This document shows positions 2,429 through 20,742 of a stretch of DNA of 28,979 bases, one piece after another. Origin of the DNA: a virus. The notes under the pieces are model-generated. The model was not told the origin of the DNA. It worked only from the letters and a program-made list of their open reading frames with translations, and ran no database searches. The stretch covers positions 1-28,979 of the IMG/VR virus record IMGVR_UViG_3300025138_000241; one strand, given 5' to 3'. Position 1 is the first letter of the stretch. The number at the start of each line of letters is the position of its first letter. Both the position numbers and the translations under genes were made by a program.

Positions 2429-2821
2429 TTATTTTTTGATTGTGATATTCTTTGAAATCTTTTCAGCACTTCGGCCCACAACATAGCCGCCAATTCCTAA
2501 CTGTAACAAGTTCCAAAATTCATCTTCCAACTCTGGTATTCTAAAATCAAATAAAGGCGCTAAAAACTTAACGTAAATCACTATAAACCCAAACGCAAGC
2601 ATTAGAATCGGCCTCCAAGAACGTTGCAACCAATTACCTTTTGCCTCTGTGACTATAATTTCAGTTTGCATTTTTTGCAATTCAAGTTCCTTTTCTTTTA
2701 AAACTTGTATGATTTTATTTTTTGCCTCAATGCGTTCCTCATCGTTAGTAAAAAGATTGTCAATTATATCGCCAATTTCTTTAATAACATTACCACCTAA
2801 AAATTCTAAGATTTTTTTCAT
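2429..2821 (-). CDS. Holin, 3TM family (PF11351-like)
   Basis: 130 aa. Residues 1-58 form a charged amphipathic helical region. The segment EAKGNWLQRSWRP (59-71) followed by a hydrophobic helix (about 71-91), and the C-terminal GIGGYVVGRSAEKI (109-122), match the pattern of the 3TM holin family first named from gene transfer agents. Such holins form inner-membrane lesions that release the endolysin at lysis. The ATG at 2821 overlaps the amidase stop (2818) by four bases, indicating translational coupling. The assignment is good from motifs plus context; the number of true membrane passes is less certain, with only two strong hydrophobic segments visible. Confidence 0.82.
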   Translation of the reverse strand: MKKILEFLGGNVIKEIGDIIDNLFTNDEERIEAKNKIIQVLKEKELELQKMQTEIIVTEAKGNWLQRSWRPILMLAFGFIVIYVKFLAPLFDFRIPELEDEFWNLLQLGIGGYVVGRSAEKISKNITIKK

Positions 2822-3246
2822 AAATGTTTGTATTCTTCAAAAGCATCAAAACAAGGACAACTTTTCGCTGCAAATTCTCGATGTCCGTGAATAGTTACAT
2901 CATCCCCGTAAATAGATTTTAATGTTGTAAGTAAATTTAAAAGGGAAATTTTTTGTTCTTTGGTTCTAGTGTCTTTTGCAATCCACTTTCCGTTCTTTCC
3001 TCTTTCAGATTCTACGCCTCCGATATAGCAAATCCCAATTGAATTTTTATTCAACCCCTTTGTGTGAGCCCCAGACCTTTCAATTGGCCTTCCAACCTCT
3101 GTAAGTCCATCTAAAGATATAATATAATGATAACCAATATCAGACCAACCCCTTTTTAAGTGCCATTTTCTTATAGTATCAACTGAAATATTTTTGCCTT
3201 CTTGTGTGGCCGAACAATGAACTATTATTTTATTTATTTTTCGCAT
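2818..3246 (-). CDS. Endolysin: N-acetylmuramoyl-L-alanine amidase, type 2
   Basis: 142 aa, close to the length of T7 lysozyme-type amidases. It cleaves the bond between muramic acid and L-alanine in peptidoglycan. Visible motifs are IIVHCSAT (H10, zinc ligand), GYHYII (39-44, catalytic Tyr region), IHGHREF (H120/H122, zinc ligand) and K128-S-C130-P-C-F (catalytic Lys and zinc-ligand Cys). There is no signal peptide, so release depends on a holin; the 3TM holin overlaps its 3' end and a small membrane protein overlaps its 5' end by 17 bases. The domain fills the whole protein, with no separate cell-wall binding module. Confidence 0.92.
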   Translation of the reverse strand: MRKINKIIVHCSATQEGKNISVDTIRKWHLKRGWSDIGYHYIISLDGLTEVGRPIERSGAHTKGLNKNSIGICYIGGVESERGKNGKWIAKDTRTKEQKISLLNLLTTLKSIYGDDVTIHGHREFAAKSCPCFDAFEEYKHL

Positions 3247-14119: not shown

Positions 14120-15793
14120 TTAAAATGGTAAACTGTCGGTTATTACTTCAAACTTTTTGGAGGCCAAAGAAATATCTTTATAAATTCCGCCGGCAGTAAA
14201 ATCGGGCGCTATATCAAAATCACCCAATTGGCCGTTTTCTTTTCGTTTAACTTTTTCAACATACATTTTAACAATGTCTGAATTATATTGGGTTTTCTGT
14301 CCTATGCAACGAAACACAATCATTCCGTTATATGCTTTATTAAAGAAATCAGCGCTTCCGGATATATCGTAAAGAGTTGGTTTTTTATAACTGCCATTGT
14401 CCGATTCGATTTTTCTTGGATGGGCCACCAAAAATAAATGTGTGTTTGTTTGCTGACAAAATTGCGTTATTTGCGAAAGCGCTTTTCCGATGTAAGAATG
14501 GTCACGTTGCGCCGAATGGTCAAGCATATTCCACGGGTCAATTACGCAAACGTTAATCCCTTTTTGAAATACCAAATCCCTGAAGGCGTTTAATATACCC
14601 TCCAACGTTAAATTTTCTAAATCAATTTTAACCCAAAAGAAATGATCCTGAATAAAATCTTTGGTTTGGTTTAAGTCATCGTTATTACAATTCTTTTCAT
14701 TTAATTTATTTGCAATTCGTTTAATGTGGCCCTCATAAGGAAATGATTCAGGTGAAAACATAGCGCATCGCATATCATAACGCGTTGCCATATTGCAGCA
14801 TATTTGGTCAACAACGTCAGATTTACCGGCGTTTGGTATTCCGGTCACAACTGTCCATTCACCCGGTGACATTTTAAAGTAATTATCTGAGTTTGGCAAT
14901 CCGATTGAATAGTTCTTGACACCGTTTTCATTATAGTTTAAAACATTATCCCAAATATTATCAATGTTTAGAATGCCTTCCAATGGGAAGTTTTTAGCGC
15001 CTTTTATTATATTACGCAACGTTTCCCCTCCCTTTGACATTAAGACCTCGTTAGCGTCTTTAAAATCGCCAAATTCAACGTATTTGCAACGATATGCGCC
15101 GAACCTTCTGGCTAATTCATTACGGAGTTCGATTCCCGGATTGTCATTGTCGGTGCAAATTATAATCTGTTTTTTATCTTTAAAATATTCAAAACAATTA
15201 TCCAGATATTCTAAACGTTGATTTCCTTTTGATGCACCATTTGGAACGCTACAAACGGAATACAAACCGGATTCGTGTAATGAAAGCGCATCCATTTCAC
15301 CCTCTACAATATAAACCGTTTCCATTTCTTTGACATTGTCAAGGCCGTAAAATACAAGTTCAGCGCCAGAAACCATTTTAAAATTCTTTTCGGAATCTCT
15401 ATATTTTACATTTAACAATTCATTATCACGGTAGTAATTGAAATTAATTGCGCGGCGCTTTTTACCTACTTGCGGAAAAAACTGTAATGATTCGCCGATT
15501 TTCCAATGTACCAAAGTTGGTTCTGTTATCCCTCGTTTATTAAACCATTCAACAACTCGCGATGTCAGATTTACTTTTATTTTTTCGGGTTTAACGTATT
15601 CGGGTTTTTTCTGAAATTTAGTTGTGCCGCTAAATCCGCAGTTGTGACAATTAAATAAACCTTGATCCAAATCAACAGATAAACATTTGTCGCGTTTGTT
15701 TTTACGTGTTGCGCTGCATTCCGGGCATTGTGTTTTAATTTTGCCGATTGATTTATTGCCGACATCAATATTAAAATCGTTAAAAGTTTTCAT
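14120..15793 (-). CDS. Bifunctional primase-helicase (zinc ribbon + Toprim + DnaB-like ATPase)
   Basis: 557 aa, similar in plan to T7 gp4. An N-terminal zinc ribbon (C23-x2-C26 ... C49-x2-C52) reads template for priming. The Toprim domain has VEGEMDAL (E164) and CTDNDNPG (D215, D217). The hexameric helicase domain has Walker A GIPNAGKS (318-325), a Walker B-like VCVIDPWN (D419), and LVAHPRK (455-461). It would make primers and unwind DNA at the phage fork. No phage DNA polymerase is visible in the window, so host polymerase is probably recruited. Starts just downstream of a nuclease-like gene and a TATTTTTA element. Confidence 0.93.
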   Translation of the reverse strand: MKTFNDFNIDVGNKSIGKIKTQCPECSATRKNKRDKCLSVDLDQGLFNCHNCGFSGTTKFQKKPEYVKPEKIKVNLTSRVVEWFNKRGITEPTLVHWKIGESLQFFPQVGKKRRAINFNYYRDNELLNVKYRDSEKNFKMVSGAELVFYGLDNVKEMETVYIVEGEMDALSLHESGLYSVCSVPNGASKGNQRLEYLDNCFEYFKDKKQIIICTDNDNPGIELRNELARRFGAYRCKYVEFGDFKDANEVLMSKGGETLRNIIKGAKNFPLEGILNIDNIWDNVLNYNENGVKNYSIGLPNSDNYFKMSPGEWTVVTGIPNAGKSDVVDQICCNMATRYDMRCAMFSPESFPYEGHIKRIANKLNEKNCNNDDLNQTKDFIQDHFFWVKIDLENLTLEGILNAFRDLVFQKGINVCVIDPWNMLDHSAQRDHSYIGKALSQITQFCQQTNTHLFLVAHPRKIESDNGSYKKPTLYDISGSADFFNKAYNGMIVFRCIGQKTQYNSDIVKMYVEKVKRKENGQLGDFDIAPDFTAGGIYKDISLASKKFEVITDSLPF

Positions 15794-16356: not shown

Positions 16357-17280
16357 TTATTGATTTTTTATTATATAGGTTTTTAGTTCATTAAATTCAT
16401 TGGTTTGCATTAATTGTTTTAAATGAAATTCAAATAGTTCACCGCCTTTTGTTTTGGCGCCTAATTCTTGTTTTCCATCCGCTGCGCTTGTATATATATA
16501 AAACTCATTTAATCCCTTTACTTTTTGAAATCCTATTGGTTTTGTTTTTGATTTTTGCATCAGCATAAAACGATCAATATATTTAATCCCGTTTTTATCT
16601 AAATTTCTAAACTTTAAAATACTTAAAAAATTAGTTTGCCAGAAATCATCGGCCCGCAAGAACTTTGTGATATTGTAAACATCGCGCAAATCATATTTAT
16701 CAATTCTTTGAATTTTGTCAAGACAATCCATCCAACGGTTTTTTTGATTTTGTGTTTTGGGCTTATATTGAATTGGAAATAATTCTACAAAATGCGGGAA
16801 CGCCTTTAAAACGGTTAAATTGTATTGTGGCGTTTTCGATTTCGTGGGTATTTCTTCTTTTAGTATTTCTTTAGTTATATAGTTTATATTAGTATTACTT
16901 TGTTGCGGATTTACCGGGCCCGGTTTAACCGCCGCGGTTTTCACCGTTGCGGTTTTTCCCGTTGCGGTGGGCTTTACCTTCTTAGGTTTGTCATTTAGAT
17001 AATAATTATAACCGGCAAATTTTCCGCCTTTTCTTATTTCTTTACGTACTAAAAACCCCGAATTTATTAGCTCTTTTAAACGTGTATTAATGGCGTCTTT
17101 TCCATCCTTAAAATGGCCGCAAATAAACTGAACGGTCATTTCTGTTTTTGATTCGTGTGAAAAAAGCCAACAATATAATCCGGTTGCGCTTGATGAAATT
17201 CCTTTATGCCTGAATATAGTGTTTGGCACGATTGTAAACCTTTCGAATTTCTTTGGTTTATATATTTTGTTTATGTCCAT
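16357..17280 (-). CDS. Replication initiator/organiser with winged-helix domain (307 aa)
   Basis: 307 aa. The N-terminal domain (about 10-95) is a winged helix like those of phage O/DnaD-type replication proteins: FTIVPNTIFRHKGISSSATG, then CGHFKDGKDAINTRLKELIN and GFLVRKEIRKGGKFAGYNYY. A Pro/Thr/Lys-rich linker (about 97-130) is low complexity and includes repeated T-A-x-K-T-A units. The C-terminal half (about 150-307) is helical, with WQTNFLSILKFRNLDKN, similar to replisome organisers that bind the helicase or its loader. It likely binds the origin and recruits the primase-helicase encoded two genes on. A hairpin leader precedes the gene. Confidence 0.75.
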   Translation of the reverse strand: MDINKIYKPKKFERFTIVPNTIFRHKGISSSATGLYCWLFSHESKTEMTVQFICGHFKDGKDAINTRLKELINSGFLVRKEIRKGGKFAGYNYYLNDKPKKVKPTATGKTATVKTAAVKPGPVNPQQSNTNINYITKEILKEEIPTKSKTPQYNLTVLKAFPHFVELFPIQYKPKTQNQKNRWMDCLDKIQRIDKYDLRDVYNITKFLRADDFWQTNFLSILKFRNLDKNGIKYIDRFMLMQKSKTKPIGFQKVKGLNEFYIYTSAADGKQELGAKTKGGELFEFHLKQLMQTNEFNELKTYIIKNQ

Positions 17281-17283
17281 AGT

Positions 17284-17338
17284 AAAAAAATAACCCTATC
17301 AAATCAGCGGTTGCGGGCGCGTCATCAATAGGGTATTG
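17284..17338 (-). terminator. Hairpin with T run upstream of the replication gene (terminator or attenuator)
   Basis: Arms ACCCTAT (17293-17299) and ATAGGGT (17328-17334) enclose a 28-base GC-rich loop; the minus strand then has a run of seven T ending just before ATG 17280. It can terminate transcription from the upstream 81-aa gene, but it also lies downstream of the TATATTTG box at 17371-17378, so it would sit in the leader of any transcript from there. Confidence 0.5.
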
Positions 17339-17350
17339 AAAAAAGTTAGT

Positions 17351-17361
17351 GTTGCCGCAAC
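17351..17361. promoter_or_regulatory. Operator-like palindrome GTTGCCGCAAC
   Basis: A perfect 5-bp dyad around one central base lies 9 bases downstream of the TATATTTG box. A similar GTTGCAAC dyad lies just downstream of the promoter at 19666-19697, so both could be sites for one regulator, for example the 65-aa HTH protein. Speculative. Confidence 0.3.
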
Positions 17362-17648: not shown

Positions 17649-18026
17649 TTAAATTTCATTATTAAAGTATTTGTTTATAGTGTTAATACAATCGTCAAAA
17701 TTATTATGCCAATCAACCGCCCAGTTGCAGTTTTCAAGCCATTTAAGCCACTTTATTTGATTTGGTGTAGGTTTGTTATATTTGTACTTTAACTCGAGCG
17801 CTAAACCGCCCTTGTTTTTGTTAGGCGTAAATATCAGTAAATCAGGGATTCCGGGCTTTGCGCCCAGATACTTCATTTTGTATTGTTCGAATGGCGTTCT
17901 TTTACCTTCGTTCATTGGATGAGTGTAAATTGTTCCGGGATATTGCATTTCGATGTAATTCATAACGGCCCTCTGAAGCTGATCTTCACCCTTTAAATAT
18001 TTTTGATATGGATTTATTTTTGCCAT
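17649..18026 (-). CDS. VRR-NUC domain nuclease
   Basis: 125 aa, nearly all VRR-NUC domain. Visible motifs are GEDQLQRAVMNYI (E14), GAKPGIPDLLIF (D62), GLALELKYKYNKPTPNQ (E78-x-K80 and Q90), and the usual final helix WLKWLENCNWAV. The family includes phage and FAN1-type nucleases acting on branched DNA, so resolution of recombination or replication intermediates before packaging is a reasonable role. It starts two bases after the stop of the 46-aa gene, in an operon with a RecE-like nuclease and a DnaA-like protein. Confidence 0.9.
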   Translation of the reverse strand: MAKINPYQKYLKGEDQLQRAVMNYIEMQYPGTIYTHPMNEGKRTPFEQYKMKYLGAKPGIPDLLIFTPNKNKGGLALELKYKYNKPTPNQIKWLKWLENCNWAVDWHNNFDDCINTINKYFNNEI

Positions 18027-18028
18027 TT

Positions 18029-18169
18029 TTATATTTCGTTATCCAAAACGCCAATTATCTTCCTAATTTCAGAGCGTTCAAATTCGCCAATAAATATTTT
18101 ATCATCCGAAATAAGCGTTAATTTATAGTAATCCTTTTTTGTTTTTTTTATTTTAATTTGTAACGCCAT
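18029..18169 (-). CDS. Small basic protein (46 aa)
   Basis: 46 aa beginning MALQIKIKKTKKDYYKLTLI. The gene starts 17 bases inside the 3' end of the DnaA-like gene and ends two bases before the VRR-NUC start; this tight fit supports it. The predicted fold is two or three strands (YKLTLISDDKIFIGEF) followed by a helix (ERSEIRKIIGVLDN). No family recognised. It may help one of its neighbours in DNA binding; this is inference. Confidence 0.55.
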   Translation of the reverse strand: MALQIKIKKTKKDYYKLTLISDDKIFIGEFERSEIRKIIGVLDNEI

Positions 18170-18542
18170 TTTTTAATTTTTTATTTTCGTTTTTTAATAT
18201 ATCGTTTTCAATCAAAAGTGAATTATATTTATAAACCATTGATTCGGCGCTGATAGTATAATCATTTATTTCATTAAAAACAAGTTTTTTTAAATTTTCA
18301 AATCTTTGATTAAATACTTTATCAAATCGAATCCAATCATCAATGTTTTTTAAGCTATGAATTACTGAAGCGTGATCACGGCCAACGGCTTCAGAAATCA
18401 CTTTCATTGAAAACCTCGTTGTGTTACGCGCCAACCAATAGAATGCAGCGCGGGCCATTACAATATCCCTTTGCCTTGAGTTTTCACGAATATCAACGTT
18501 GTAGTAATTATTTACATTTTTTATTAAATCTTCTAAAGTCAT
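18153..18542 (-). CDS. Orphan DnaA domain IV-like DNA-binding protein (129 aa)
   Basis: 129 aa. Residues 1-70 align by eye with the C-terminal DNA-binding domain of DnaA: TLEDLIKNVNNYYNV, then RQRDIVMARAAFYWLARNTT and ISEAVGRDHASVIHSLKNI. The AAA+ ATPase and N-terminal domains are absent. The DnaA signature GRDHTT is GRDHAS here (56-59), so the two Thr that contact the DnaA box in E. coli are Ala and Ser. The C-terminal part (about 108-126, LLIENDILKNENKKLKN) is a short coiled coil. It could bind the phage origin, compete with host DnaA, or regulate genes. Gene order: right after the RecE-like gene (3-base gap). Confidence 0.8.
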   Translation of the reverse strand: MTLEDLIKNVNNYYNVDIRENSRQRDIVMARAAFYWLARNTTRFSMKVISEAVGRDHASVIHSLKNIDDWIRFDKVFNQRFENLKKLVFNEINDYTISAESMVYKYNSLLIENDILKNENKKLKNGVTN

Positions 18543-18545
18543 TTT

Positions 18546-19307
18546 TTATAGTATTAAAGAACCGTCATTATTAAATTCATTCCAAATAAAACCCGATATT
18601 ATTCCGGTTTCAGCATATATTTTCCAGTCATTAAAAGCACGTTGCCAACCTTTGCGCCCTTGTTGAATCATTTCATCGCTTAACGCGTAAACCTCAACAG
18701 AAAACGGCCAATTAGTTTCAACGGCTATAAAGCGAAAGTTTTCAGCCGGAACGCCTAACATATCGGAATAAAAGGCGCATTGTAAATGATAGCCATATTT
18801 ATAAACATCTCGGCGAAATGCAATTGGTGAATTGTCTTGGCACGTTTTAACATCCGAAATAAAATTTTCAACGCGGTTTAAAACGTCGGGCCGAATGCGA
18901 ACATCGATGTCATCGTGTTTTTTGTAATGTGACAATTCAATTTCGCCTTTACAATATTTTTGGGCCAAATCGTGGTTTCTAAAATTATCTAAAATCTTTG
19001 TGATTTTATTATGTTCATCAAAACCCAATAGCAATTTGCCTTCAGATTTTTTTGATTCGATTTCAAACGCTTCTTTTCCGGCCTTTGTGCGGCGGTCAAT
19101 CTTTGGCATAATGTGATAATCCTTGTAATAAAGTTCGGGTTCTAACATAGCGCAATGAACCGCTGAACCTAATGCCATTGCAGATGATTCAAATGGCTTT
19201 TGTTTTAAGAAATGATAAACAGATTTCTTGTGTATTGTTTTAAGGCCTGAAGCGCTTATTCCGGGTGATGAATGATAAACTTCATTCGCATCAAATTGTG
19301 TTTTCAT
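18546..19307 (-). CDS. RecE-like exonuclease, PD-(D/E)XK family
   Basis: 253 aa, about the size of the phage RecE nuclease core. Motifs are GLKTIHKKSVYHFL (21-34), ALGSAVHCAMLEPE (H51), IRPDVL (D141), ISDVKTC (D152-x-K154) and YGYHLQCAFYSDML (Q176), the conserved order of the putative exodeoxyribonuclease 8 PDDEXK-like group. It would degrade one strand from double-strand ends to give substrate for an annealing protein. An ERF-like candidate and a protein with an SSB-style tail lie upstream in the same module, making a coherent recombination set. Confidence 0.9.
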   Translation of the reverse strand: MKTQFDANEVYHSSPGISASGLKTIHKKSVYHFLKQKPFESSAMALGSAVHCAMLEPELYYKDYHIMPKIDRRTKAGKEAFEIESKKSEGKLLLGFDEHNKITKILDNFRNHDLAQKYCKGEIELSHYKKHDDIDVRIRPDVLNRVENFISDVKTCQDNSPIAFRRDVYKYGYHLQCAFYSDMLGVPAENFRFIAVETNWPFSVEVYALSDEMIQQGRKGWQRAFNDWKIYAETGIISGFIWNEFNNDGSLIL

Positions 19308-19311
19308 AGTT

Positions 19312-19428
19312 TTAACAGTCGTTTAAAATGTGATCGGTTTGTTCTTGAATAATACCGTTTAATTTTTCGATTTTGTTTTCCATCGCTTCAATGCGATATT
19401 GCAAAAATTTAAGTGTTTCAACGTTCAT
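19312..19428 (-). CDS. Small coiled-coil protein (38 aa)
   Basis: 38 aa starting MNVETLKFLQYRIEAMENKI. The whole sequence fits a single amphipathic helix with heptad-like hydrophobic spacing, so it could dimerise. It ends 4 bases before the RecE-like start. Short phage coiled-coil proteins at such places are common but their function is usually unknown. Confidence 0.5.
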   Translation of the reverse strand: MNVETLKFLQYRIEAMENKIEKLNGIIQEQTDHILNDC

Positions 19429-19475: not shown

Positions 19476-19628
19476 TTATTTTGATAATTGCTTTGCTATT
19501 TTAAACGCTTTAATAAATGATAATTCACAAGTCATTAGCGTAATTAATAACTCACCTTCTAAGCTGTTGTCTTTAAATGATGTTTTAGCGATAATGTTTG
19601 CTCTTGTAGTGTTTGATATTGTAGTCAT
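19476..19628 (-). CDS. Small protein of unknown function (50 aa)
   Basis: 50 aa starting MTTISNTTRANIIAKTSFKD. Mostly helical by composition, with a basic C-terminus (FKIAKQLSK) and one Cys. It is the first gene after the best promoter in the window (TTTG-N20-TATCTTTG, 19666-19697), so it is likely to be expressed early and strongly. Such leader-position small genes often encode host-takeover factors, but nothing in this sequence proves it. Family not recognised. Confidence 0.55.
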   Translation of the reverse strand: MTTISNTTRANIIAKTSFKDNSLEGELLITLMTCELSFIKAFKIAKQLSK

Positions 19629-19781: not shown

Positions 19782-20030
19782 TTAAAACGGTAAATCATCA
19801 CCGCCTTCAGCAACCGGGGCCGCTTCTTGTTTAACATAAGGATCACTTAATTTCAATGAAAAGAATTTTCCTTTTGCGCCATCTTTAACCCAAGCCGCAA
19901 TTTGTTGTTCGCTGCCATCTTGCAGTTTGATAGTTCCCGAATACTCCGGTTGGTTGTCTGAAGTTTTGTTTGTGTTCTTAAATAAACTTCCGTTTCCATT
20001 TTGGTGTTCATACTTTTTGTCAATACTCAT
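19782..20030 (-). CDS. DUF736-like small protein with SSB-style DDLPF tail (82 aa)
   Basis: 82 aa. The core (about 10-65) has NGNGSLFKNTNKTSDNQPEY, SGTIKLQDGSEQQIAAWVKD and GKFFSLKLSDPY, the strand pattern of DUF736-type proteins. A flexible Ala/Pro/Gly linker then leads to the C-terminal GGDDLPF. An acidic DD[IL]PF tail is the hallmark by which SSB recruits partner enzymes. I infer that this is a short ssDNA-binding or SSB-mimic protein. It starts 6 bases after the ERF-like gene, which favours a joint role in annealing or recombination. DNA binding is not proven by the sequence. Confidence 0.7.
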   Translation of the reverse strand: MSIDKKYEHQNGNGSLFKNTNKTSDNQPEYSGTIKLQDGSEQQIAAWVKDGAKGKFFSLKLSDPYVKQEAAPVAEGGDDLPF

Positions 20031-20036
20031 TTTTAT

Positions 20037-20534
20037 TTATTTTAAATTAAACTTACTTACTATTTTATCTTTATATTCTTTTTTCATTTTAAAGGTGTTT
20101 AAAACCTTTTCCGCTTGGTCTTTAGTAGCTTTTAACGTTGCATTTAATTGCGCTTCCGTTAACCACTTTTTATCATCCTTAAGGGCCGTTGTTTGATTCT
20201 TAACGGCGTTTTGTACTTCATTAGCTGAAGCAATTGACGTATCAATTCCGATACCTAAATAACCCAATGCGCGGCCCAATGCTGAAGTAAACCCGTTTTC
20301 AACAAATGATGTTTTGTTTATATATGACGAATCGCGATATTCTTGTGAATGTGCCGTTGCAACAAAATGACCTTCGTTATTGCAAATCGTTACTTTAAAA
20401 ATCCCTTCTTTGTCGTCAATTGAAACAATTGTTTCGTTAATTTGCCAACCTTCAAACTCTGGTTGACTTCTAAAATAAATAAGGCGTTCGTTAACTGTAA
20501 TGTAATCTTTGCCTTTGATGTTAATGGTTTTCAT
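20037..20534 (-). CDS. Putative single-strand annealing/recombination protein (ERF-like)
   Basis: 165 aa. The central pattern is INKTSFVENGFTSALGRALG then YLGIGIDTSIASANEVQNAV (about 72-111), with an N-terminal VNERLIYFRSQPEF stretch. It resembles a widespread phage family in which an E-x-x-x-TSAxGRAL motif is followed by IASAxEV; such proteins are usually compared with ERF-type annealing proteins. The C-terminal 50 residues are a Lys-rich helical tail. Neighbours fit: a protein with an SSB-like tail directly after and a RecE-like exonuclease in the next operon. The exact class (ERF, Rad52-like or other) cannot be settled by eye. Confidence 0.6.
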   Translation of the reverse strand: MKTINIKGKDYITVNERLIYFRSQPEFEGWQINETIVSIDDKEGIFKVTICNNEGHFVATAHSQEYRDSSYINKTSFVENGFTSALGRALGYLGIGIDTSIASANEVQNAVKNQTTALKDDKKWLTEAQLNATLKATKDQAEKVLNTFKMKKEYKDKIVSKFNLK

Positions 20535-20544
20535 ATAGTTGTTT

Positions 20545-20742
20545 TTAAATGTTTAAGTTTTCTGTTATTTGGCCCAAATTAAATTTATTCCCTTGCAACA
20601 ATAGCACTTCGCCAATGGTGAAAGTTTTCGGATTTTTTAATCGTGATTTTAATGTTGGCATTGTGCAATTTAGTAAACCGCAAACCTCATAACGCTTTAA
20701 TTTTAAGCGTTTCATTTCGCCCTTGAAGTGTTGTTCAAACAT
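20545..20742 (-). CDS. Small helix-turn-helix protein (65 aa)
   Basis: 65 aa. The segment KLKRYEVCGLLNCTMPTLKS (about 14-33) followed by RLKNPKTFTIGEVLLLQGNK reads as a Cro/CI-like or excisionase-like helix-turn-helix with a short C-terminal helix. It is the first gene after the terminator that ends the tail module, so it may open the early region and act as a regulator; the dyads at 17351 and 19654 are possible targets. It lacks the dimerisation domain of full repressors. A TATTTTTG box lies at 20766-20773, 23 bases before the start. Confidence 0.6.
   Translation of the reverse strand: MFEQHFKGEMKRLKLKRYEVCGLLNCTMPTLKSRLKNPKTFTIGEVLLLQGNKFNLGQITENLNI

Follow-up and report, generated by a model that had tools for sequence, protein, structure and literature searches.

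An orphan DnaA domain IV protein in the recombination and replication module of a marine-type phage

Introduction

Domain IV of DnaA is its origin-binding domain, and DnaA-domain-IV-like helix-turn-helix (HTH) domains also occur apart from the rest of DnaA. In Caulobacter, GafY is homologous to DnaA domain IV and, in passages of one report, is proposed not to regulate oriC replication; the same passages recount an earlier study in which some loci rose in copy number when the GafY gene was overexpressed, an effect that the authors credit to production of the gene transfer agent (GTA) (PMC9632790). Passages of a second report place a putative GafY element upstream of the GTA promoter and describe direct interaction between GafY and RpoD (PMC11150451). 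In Rhodobacter, the N-terminal part of GafA is DnaA-domain-IV-like, and GafA activates GTA transcription, according to passages of a third (PMC9638019).

Phages carry orphan genes of this kind as well, and their records label them 'DnaA' or 'DNA replication initiation'. Muminvirus gp26, phi19:3 gp13 and HTVC100P gp21 are short, of PF08299 type and close to replication or recombination genes, like the gene analysed here, with PF08299 scores of 55.7 bits for phi19:3, 59.3 for HTVC100P and 30.7, just below the cut-off of 31.5, for Muminvirus. The window, a 28,979-nucleotide stretch of viral DNA, encodes a protein that is 28–30% identical to these three and 37% identical to Parabacteroides DnaA. 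The literature searched held no report on its family, although one may exist elsewhere.

Gene neighbourhood

The gene lies in a minus-strand operon of recombination and replication genes:

20545–20742, minus strand: the operon's first gene, encoding a small HTH-like protein (HTH_Mga at 18.9 bits, below the cut-off of 23)
20037–20534, minus strand: protein of unknown function (phrog_11717 match; no Pfam match above cut-off), possibly a single-strand annealing protein
19782–20030, minus strand: SSB-like protein (phrog_18154, E 1.4e-9)
19312–19428, minus strand: coiled-coil-like ORF of 38 aa, immediately upstream of the exonuclease gene
18546–19307, minus strand: RecE/exonuclease VIII-like protein (DUF3799, phrog_412); the DnaA-like gene begins a few bases after it
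18153–18542, minus strand: orphan DnaA domain IV protein of 129 aa, with an HTH domain at about residues 1–90 and a C-terminal helix at 99–127
17649–18026, minus strand: VRR_NUC nuclease (phrog_824; phrog_5702, Holliday junction resolvase)
16357–17280, minus strand: replication initiator or helicase loader-like gene (HTH_36; DnaD-like and initiation PHROGs)
14120–15793, minus strand: Toprim primase/DnaB-like helicase (phrog_239, E 5e-90)

The order exonuclease, DnaA-like gene, VRR nuclease, small gene, initiator and primase/helicase recurs among the close relatives, which come from IMG/VR plus one MAG contig (equal to L026). The preliminary description had placed the gene in a recombination operon and not beside a helicase loader; the exonuclease and VRR nuclease flanks agree with the first part, whereas the DnaD-like loader or initiator is the third listed gene downstream.

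The slot at 19476–19628 (minus strand), flanked by the SSB-like gene and the 38-aa ORF, holds varying small ORFs, or none, across relatives when compared by eye.

A real gene with the DnaA DNA-binding fold

The DnaA-like ORF is a real gene. It has 26 distinct complete relatives and dN is below dS in 17/17 computed pairs (ratio at most ~0.32, with several dS values above 1 and near saturation), which together argue against a chance ORF; frame 1 of the plus strand over 18153–18542 contains stops and is not open.

As the preliminary description had claimed, the DNA-binding domain of DnaA is kept and the ATPase lost. Bac_DnaA_C (PF08299) matches residues 4–67 of the 129-aa protein (E 3e-14, 53.2 bits against a curated cut-off of 31.5), and the full-length DnaA model TIGR00362 of NCBIfam is matched only at positions 347–435 of its 437, scoring 57.9 bits against a cut-off of 343.9. 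The AAA+ ATPase (domain III) is absent; compared with DnaA, the phage protein is without domains I–III and has an extra C-terminal helix. By sequence it matches the solved DnaA DNA-binding domain 1j1v with an E value of 1.5e-5. Comparison of a predicted structure with DnaA domain IV, which that description had proposed, bears out the fold: an AlphaFold (AF2) model built from an alignment of 13 family proteins has a pLDDT of 87.2 and matches M. tuberculosis DnaA (3pvp) with a Z score of 16.1 over 93 residues and E. coli DnaA (1j1v) with 15.0 over 90 residues, and the best non-DnaA match reaches 6.1.

The C-terminal heptad helix described earlier stands as a predicted helix, but its heptads are not significant. 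In the AF2 model a helix at 99–127 follows the DnaA-like domain, with M102, L109, L116 and L123 spaced seven apart, but its heptad score of 0.57 compares with a mean maximum of 0.50 in column shuffles (p 0.175), and the HALZ leucine zipper model (PF02183) scores 18.9 bits, under its cut-off of 28.1. A coiled-coil tail is not supported. Dimerisation is plausible, and the 38-aa coiled-coil-like ORF (19312–19428) is a possible partner for the helix; by eye, a similar ORF precedes the exonuclease in 12/12 records, with another ORF intervening in G003.

DNA-contacting residues

R399, P423, D433, H434, T435 and H439 are given as base-contacting residues of DnaA in passages of PMC7561715, with R399 and T435 named also in passages of PMC5742627; R442 and K443 are backbone contacts in passages of PMC9638019. 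Residues were counted over the 26 distinct complete family proteins, in E. coli numbering obtained by sequence alignment to 1j1v. In addition we followed R401, R407, Q408, T436 and A440, which we take to be further contact-related positions.

R399, R401, R407 and D433 are invariant (26/26) and H434 is kept in 25/26. Position 435 is A in 20 proteins, S in five and T in one; position 436 is S throughout the family, position 443 is N in place of K443 in 26/26, and P423 occurs in none of the 26. Position 439 is H in 7/26 and Y in 19/26, and Q408 is replaced by A or G.

The window's protein carries the motif GRDHAS, reported in the preliminary description as a change from GRDHTT. The motif does differ from that of E. 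coli, but the four Bacteroidota-type DnaAs compared (L057–L060; two from Parabacteroides and Phocaeicola records, two from faecal scaffolds) already read KDHAT (L057, L058 and L060) or RDHST (L059). Because three of them carry alanine and the fourth serine where E. coli has T435, the change at 435 looks like a lineage feature and not one made in the phage. T436S and Q408A/G are real changes relative to all four. The phage protein also lacks three residues before the basic loop and one before D433 that these DnaAs possess; the phi19:3 and HTVC100P proteins do not have the three-residue deletion.

The full-length Bacteroidota dnaA genes L057 and L058 come from records labelled as plasmids, which may be pieces of chromosomes.

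Proposed role in transcription

The best reading, which we advance tentatively, is that of a motor-less DnaA-fold protein that may regulate transcription from phage or host promoters in the manner of GafY. It is favoured because the orphan DnaA domain IV proteins found with a studied role are transcription activators. The protein, perhaps a dimer, would recognise specific sequences in double-stranded DNA and would act by occupying sites and not by opening DNA; regulation of phage or host promoters would be its most likely output, as with GafY at the Caulobacter gene transfer agent. If so, the family may link the orphan DnaA domains of phages to the regulatory role proposed for GafY.

The precedent is alphaproteobacterial, and the suggested likeness is one of working mode. 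From passages of PMC9632790 and PMC9638019, the common feature is a DnaA-domain-IV-like HTH in a phage-like element, stand-alone in GafY and N-terminal in GafA. The two, likened to the phage protein by description, differ from it in having a GafZ partner or a fused sigma-like part; none of the 20 window proteins scanned with Pfam, from 43 chosen ORFs, matches a sigma domain or DUF6456. The phage protein, by comparison, sits in a recombination and replication module and keeps DnaA contact residues. Two observations speak against a regulator: no promoter was linked to the protein in this analysis, and its contact residues are nearer to those of DnaA than are the ones in GafA, which has E at R399 and S at T435, a pattern that fits occupancy of DnaA boxes at least equally well. 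The rise in copy number recounted for GafY overexpression counts against it too.

Searches for a target site also count against a regulator, since none was found. All 45 listed enriched intergenic 8-mers from five records lack resemblance to a DnaA box and consist of promoter-, terminator- and leader-like words. Repeat families other than an array inside the initiator gene could not be tied to the DnaA-like protein. An inverted repeat, GTTGC-GCAAC, shared by two window promoters was rejected, as other clades, compared by eye, do not keep it at the second of these.

Among the enriched intergenic words of the five records, TTTGTATT occurs in 17 segments where 2.0 would be expected, and ATATTTAC in 10 where 0.9 would be; such words possibly mark promoter classes.

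Possible occupancy of host DnaA boxes

A possible but somewhat doubtful alternative, in line with the block of host initiation suggested in the preliminary description, is that the motor-less domain is directed at the host, occupying DnaA boxes at oriC or at DnaA-regulated promoters and thereby slowing initiation or freeing replication proteins. Most box-recognising contacts are kept and match Bacteroidota-type DnaA, yet the serine at 436 (26/26), the replacement of Q408 by A or G and the tyrosine in place of H439 (19/26) may shift specificity. The phage DNA itself would titrate such a protein little: in 12 records, several of them partial and one of them the window, exact DnaA boxes (TTATNCACA) number 0–3 per record and are no more clustered than randomly placed sites. 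The window has no exact box and 23 sites with at most one mismatch. Such a low count is ordinary, however. The share of permuted motifs at or below the observed box count ranges from 0.127 to 0.592 over the 12 records, so that avoidance is not supported, and an apparent depletion in the window (23 sites against 46.65 expected from dinucleotide shuffles) was dropped, with 14.7% of permuted motifs as rare there.

The DnaA-like protein is fast-evolving, which suits a host-facing protein. Among the nine module genes with data, its gene ranks last in mean pairwise identity, at 50.4% for 10 representatives; the other eight reach 58.0–83.8% over 4–10 representatives, the representative sets varying by gene. 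It is less conserved than the neighbouring exonuclease in 370 of 378 non-independent pairs, with two ties and six pairs in the opposite direction. In L097, the DnaA-like gene (~2568–3068) is 57% identical to that of the window, while the other module genes are 90–95% identical, except the first HTH gene at 66%; relative to L007, nucleotide identity falls at the DnaA-like gene and recovers past it. This looks like a clean allele replacement, which would likewise suit a host-facing protein, and both alleles carry the same residue at 10 of the 13 contact-related positions.

The operon's first HTH gene (20545–20742, minus strand) is 66–70% identical to its counterparts in L097, L012 and L017, where most neighbours exceed 90%.

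More doubtful still is a fuller version, in which the phage-made motor-less DnaA, perhaps derived from a Bacteroidota lineage, would act as a dominant-negative box occupant, silencing oriC or DnaA-controlled promoters of the host, its alleles being exchanged like cassettes, as in L097, in a host–phage arms race that leaves the DNA-gripping residues nearly fixed. If host boxes are indeed occupied, the protein would be a compact tool for studying or stopping Bacteroidota replication.

In a tree, the window family, Muminvirus and HTVC100P stand apart from the DnaAs with branch support of 95/92, and the phi19:3 protein clusters weakly (82/65) with Bacteroidota-type DnaA; three of the 13 inner branches are well supported, and placement of the long branches (Muminvirus, HTVC100P, phi19:3 and the alphaproteobacterial DnaA) is unsure.

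A possible accessory role in replication or recombination

The setting of the gene would fit an accessory factor that binds the phage origin, recombination intermediates or forks and aids the initiator, exonuclease or helicase, a role that we consider unlikely. Wherever both nucleases are present, the DnaA-like gene lies between the exonuclease and the VRR nuclease genes. Among 38 contigs including the window (L017, L031, L094, L033 and, besides these, repeat loci from contigs already in the set were dropped beforehand), 32 hold both flanks and all 32 hold the DnaA-like gene, most having been fetched by that gene itself. A fairer figure is 12/12, from the two-flank contigs reached solely through the leader pattern described below (L063, L066, L072, L079, L084, L085, L086, L089, L092, L095, L097 and L099). 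The orphan genes of Muminvirus, Cellulophaga phi19:3 and Pelagibacter HTVC100P similarly have genes for nucleases, annealing proteins, primases, recombination or DnaC-like proteins no more than about 6 kb away. Against such a role stand the low identity of the DnaA-like gene relative to the other module genes and the change of initiator and repeat type while the DnaA-like protein stays.

The initiator gene and the candidate phage origin

The initiator at 16357–17280 matches a DnaD-like helicase loader PHROG (E 4.6e-13) and a replication-initiation PHROG (E 1.6e-10); its structure model is poor (pLDDT 56). Its gene contains a repeat array:

16902–16968, minus strand: in-gene array of repeats resembling ACCGNNNCGGT, spaced by about 15 bases; candidate iterons of a phage origin

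A stretch that looks AT-rich follows the array. Lambda O reads repeats within its own gene; by its layout the array resembles the lambda O origin and is a candidate phage origin. Phage replication is probably started by the initiator, which would read the repeats inside its own gene. The initiator gene holds two or three copies of CCGN3CGG in 9/12 records, and the remaining three, with another initiator type, have different in-gene repeats. The word alone is not specific to the putative origin, since seven of its 10 copies in the window (0.72 expected) lie outside the initiator gene and three inside; the array is the evidence. In L028–L030 the repeats are retained by eye despite a shifted reading frame over part of the array, which suggests selection on the DNA.

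Comparison of L022 (9262–10143), L026 (9489–10373) and L027 (9340–10239) provides a natural swap. Residues 1–95 of the initiators of L022 and L026 are 15% identical to L027, residues 150–300 are 97–99% identical, and the repeats differ too. Between L022 and L027 the DnaA-like protein shows 87% identity, and 12 of its 13 contact-related positions agree, R442 being the exception. Because the DNA-reading half of the initiator and the repeats are swapped while the DnaA-like protein stays, the latter is probably not the reader of the phage origin, and the comparison argues against the replication labels in phage records. The idea of the preliminary description, that the protein could bind a phage origin whose sequence differs, is therefore very unlikely: it draws on the origin-binding type of domain IV and a weak match to phrog_30669 'replication initiation protein' (E 0.015), and is opposed by the swap, by an initiator with an HTH and in-gene repeats of its own, and by the lack of DnaA-box clusters (12 records) or any other linked repeat family.

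A pseudoknotted leader

A conserved element lies upstream of the initiator gene:

17294–17361, minus strand: conserved pseudoknotted leader

The leader fits a covarying pseudoknot over 17 distinct sequences, with 323/323 cells paired and 14 two-sided changes in four pairs, counts that are inflated by the relatedness of the sequences. None of 500 shuffles reaches the observed number of paired cells, of two-sided cells or the covariation score, one reaches the number of pairs with a two-sided change, and 178 reach the number of further pair types; six slid controls give zero two-sided changes. Folded alone and without the pseudoknot, the window's leader is not unusually stable (z −1.02, 29/200 shuffles at least as good). 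Rfam gives nothing above thresholds for the leader, only weak matches (E 1.3–9.2). The pattern matches 39 stretches, of which 31 carry phage-module genes and eight, lacking them, look like chance. The leader was sought and not seen in L022, L023, L024 and L026. It is not strictly tied to initiator type, since in L072 and L094 it precedes, by eye, an initiator start resembling the L022 type. We regard it as a candidate for a new structured element, acting as RNA or as DNA.

Host and habitat

Matches to Flavobacterium and Cellulophaga phages, together with likeness to Bacteroidota DnaA, make Bacteroidota a likely host group, at the level of a guess. A strict scan of the window with what we take to be the Bacteroidota promoter consensus gave no excess on the coding strand (four matches against six on the opposite strand). 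The phage is of marine type.

The phage contig L033 (NYTN01000016.1), which equals L026, is placed in a MAG with the title Rhodobiaceae; the DnaA of this MAG has the motif GRDHTT. The GC content of the L033 contig is 0.356 against 0.453 for the single dnaA stretch of that MAG, and the contig may have been mis-binned.
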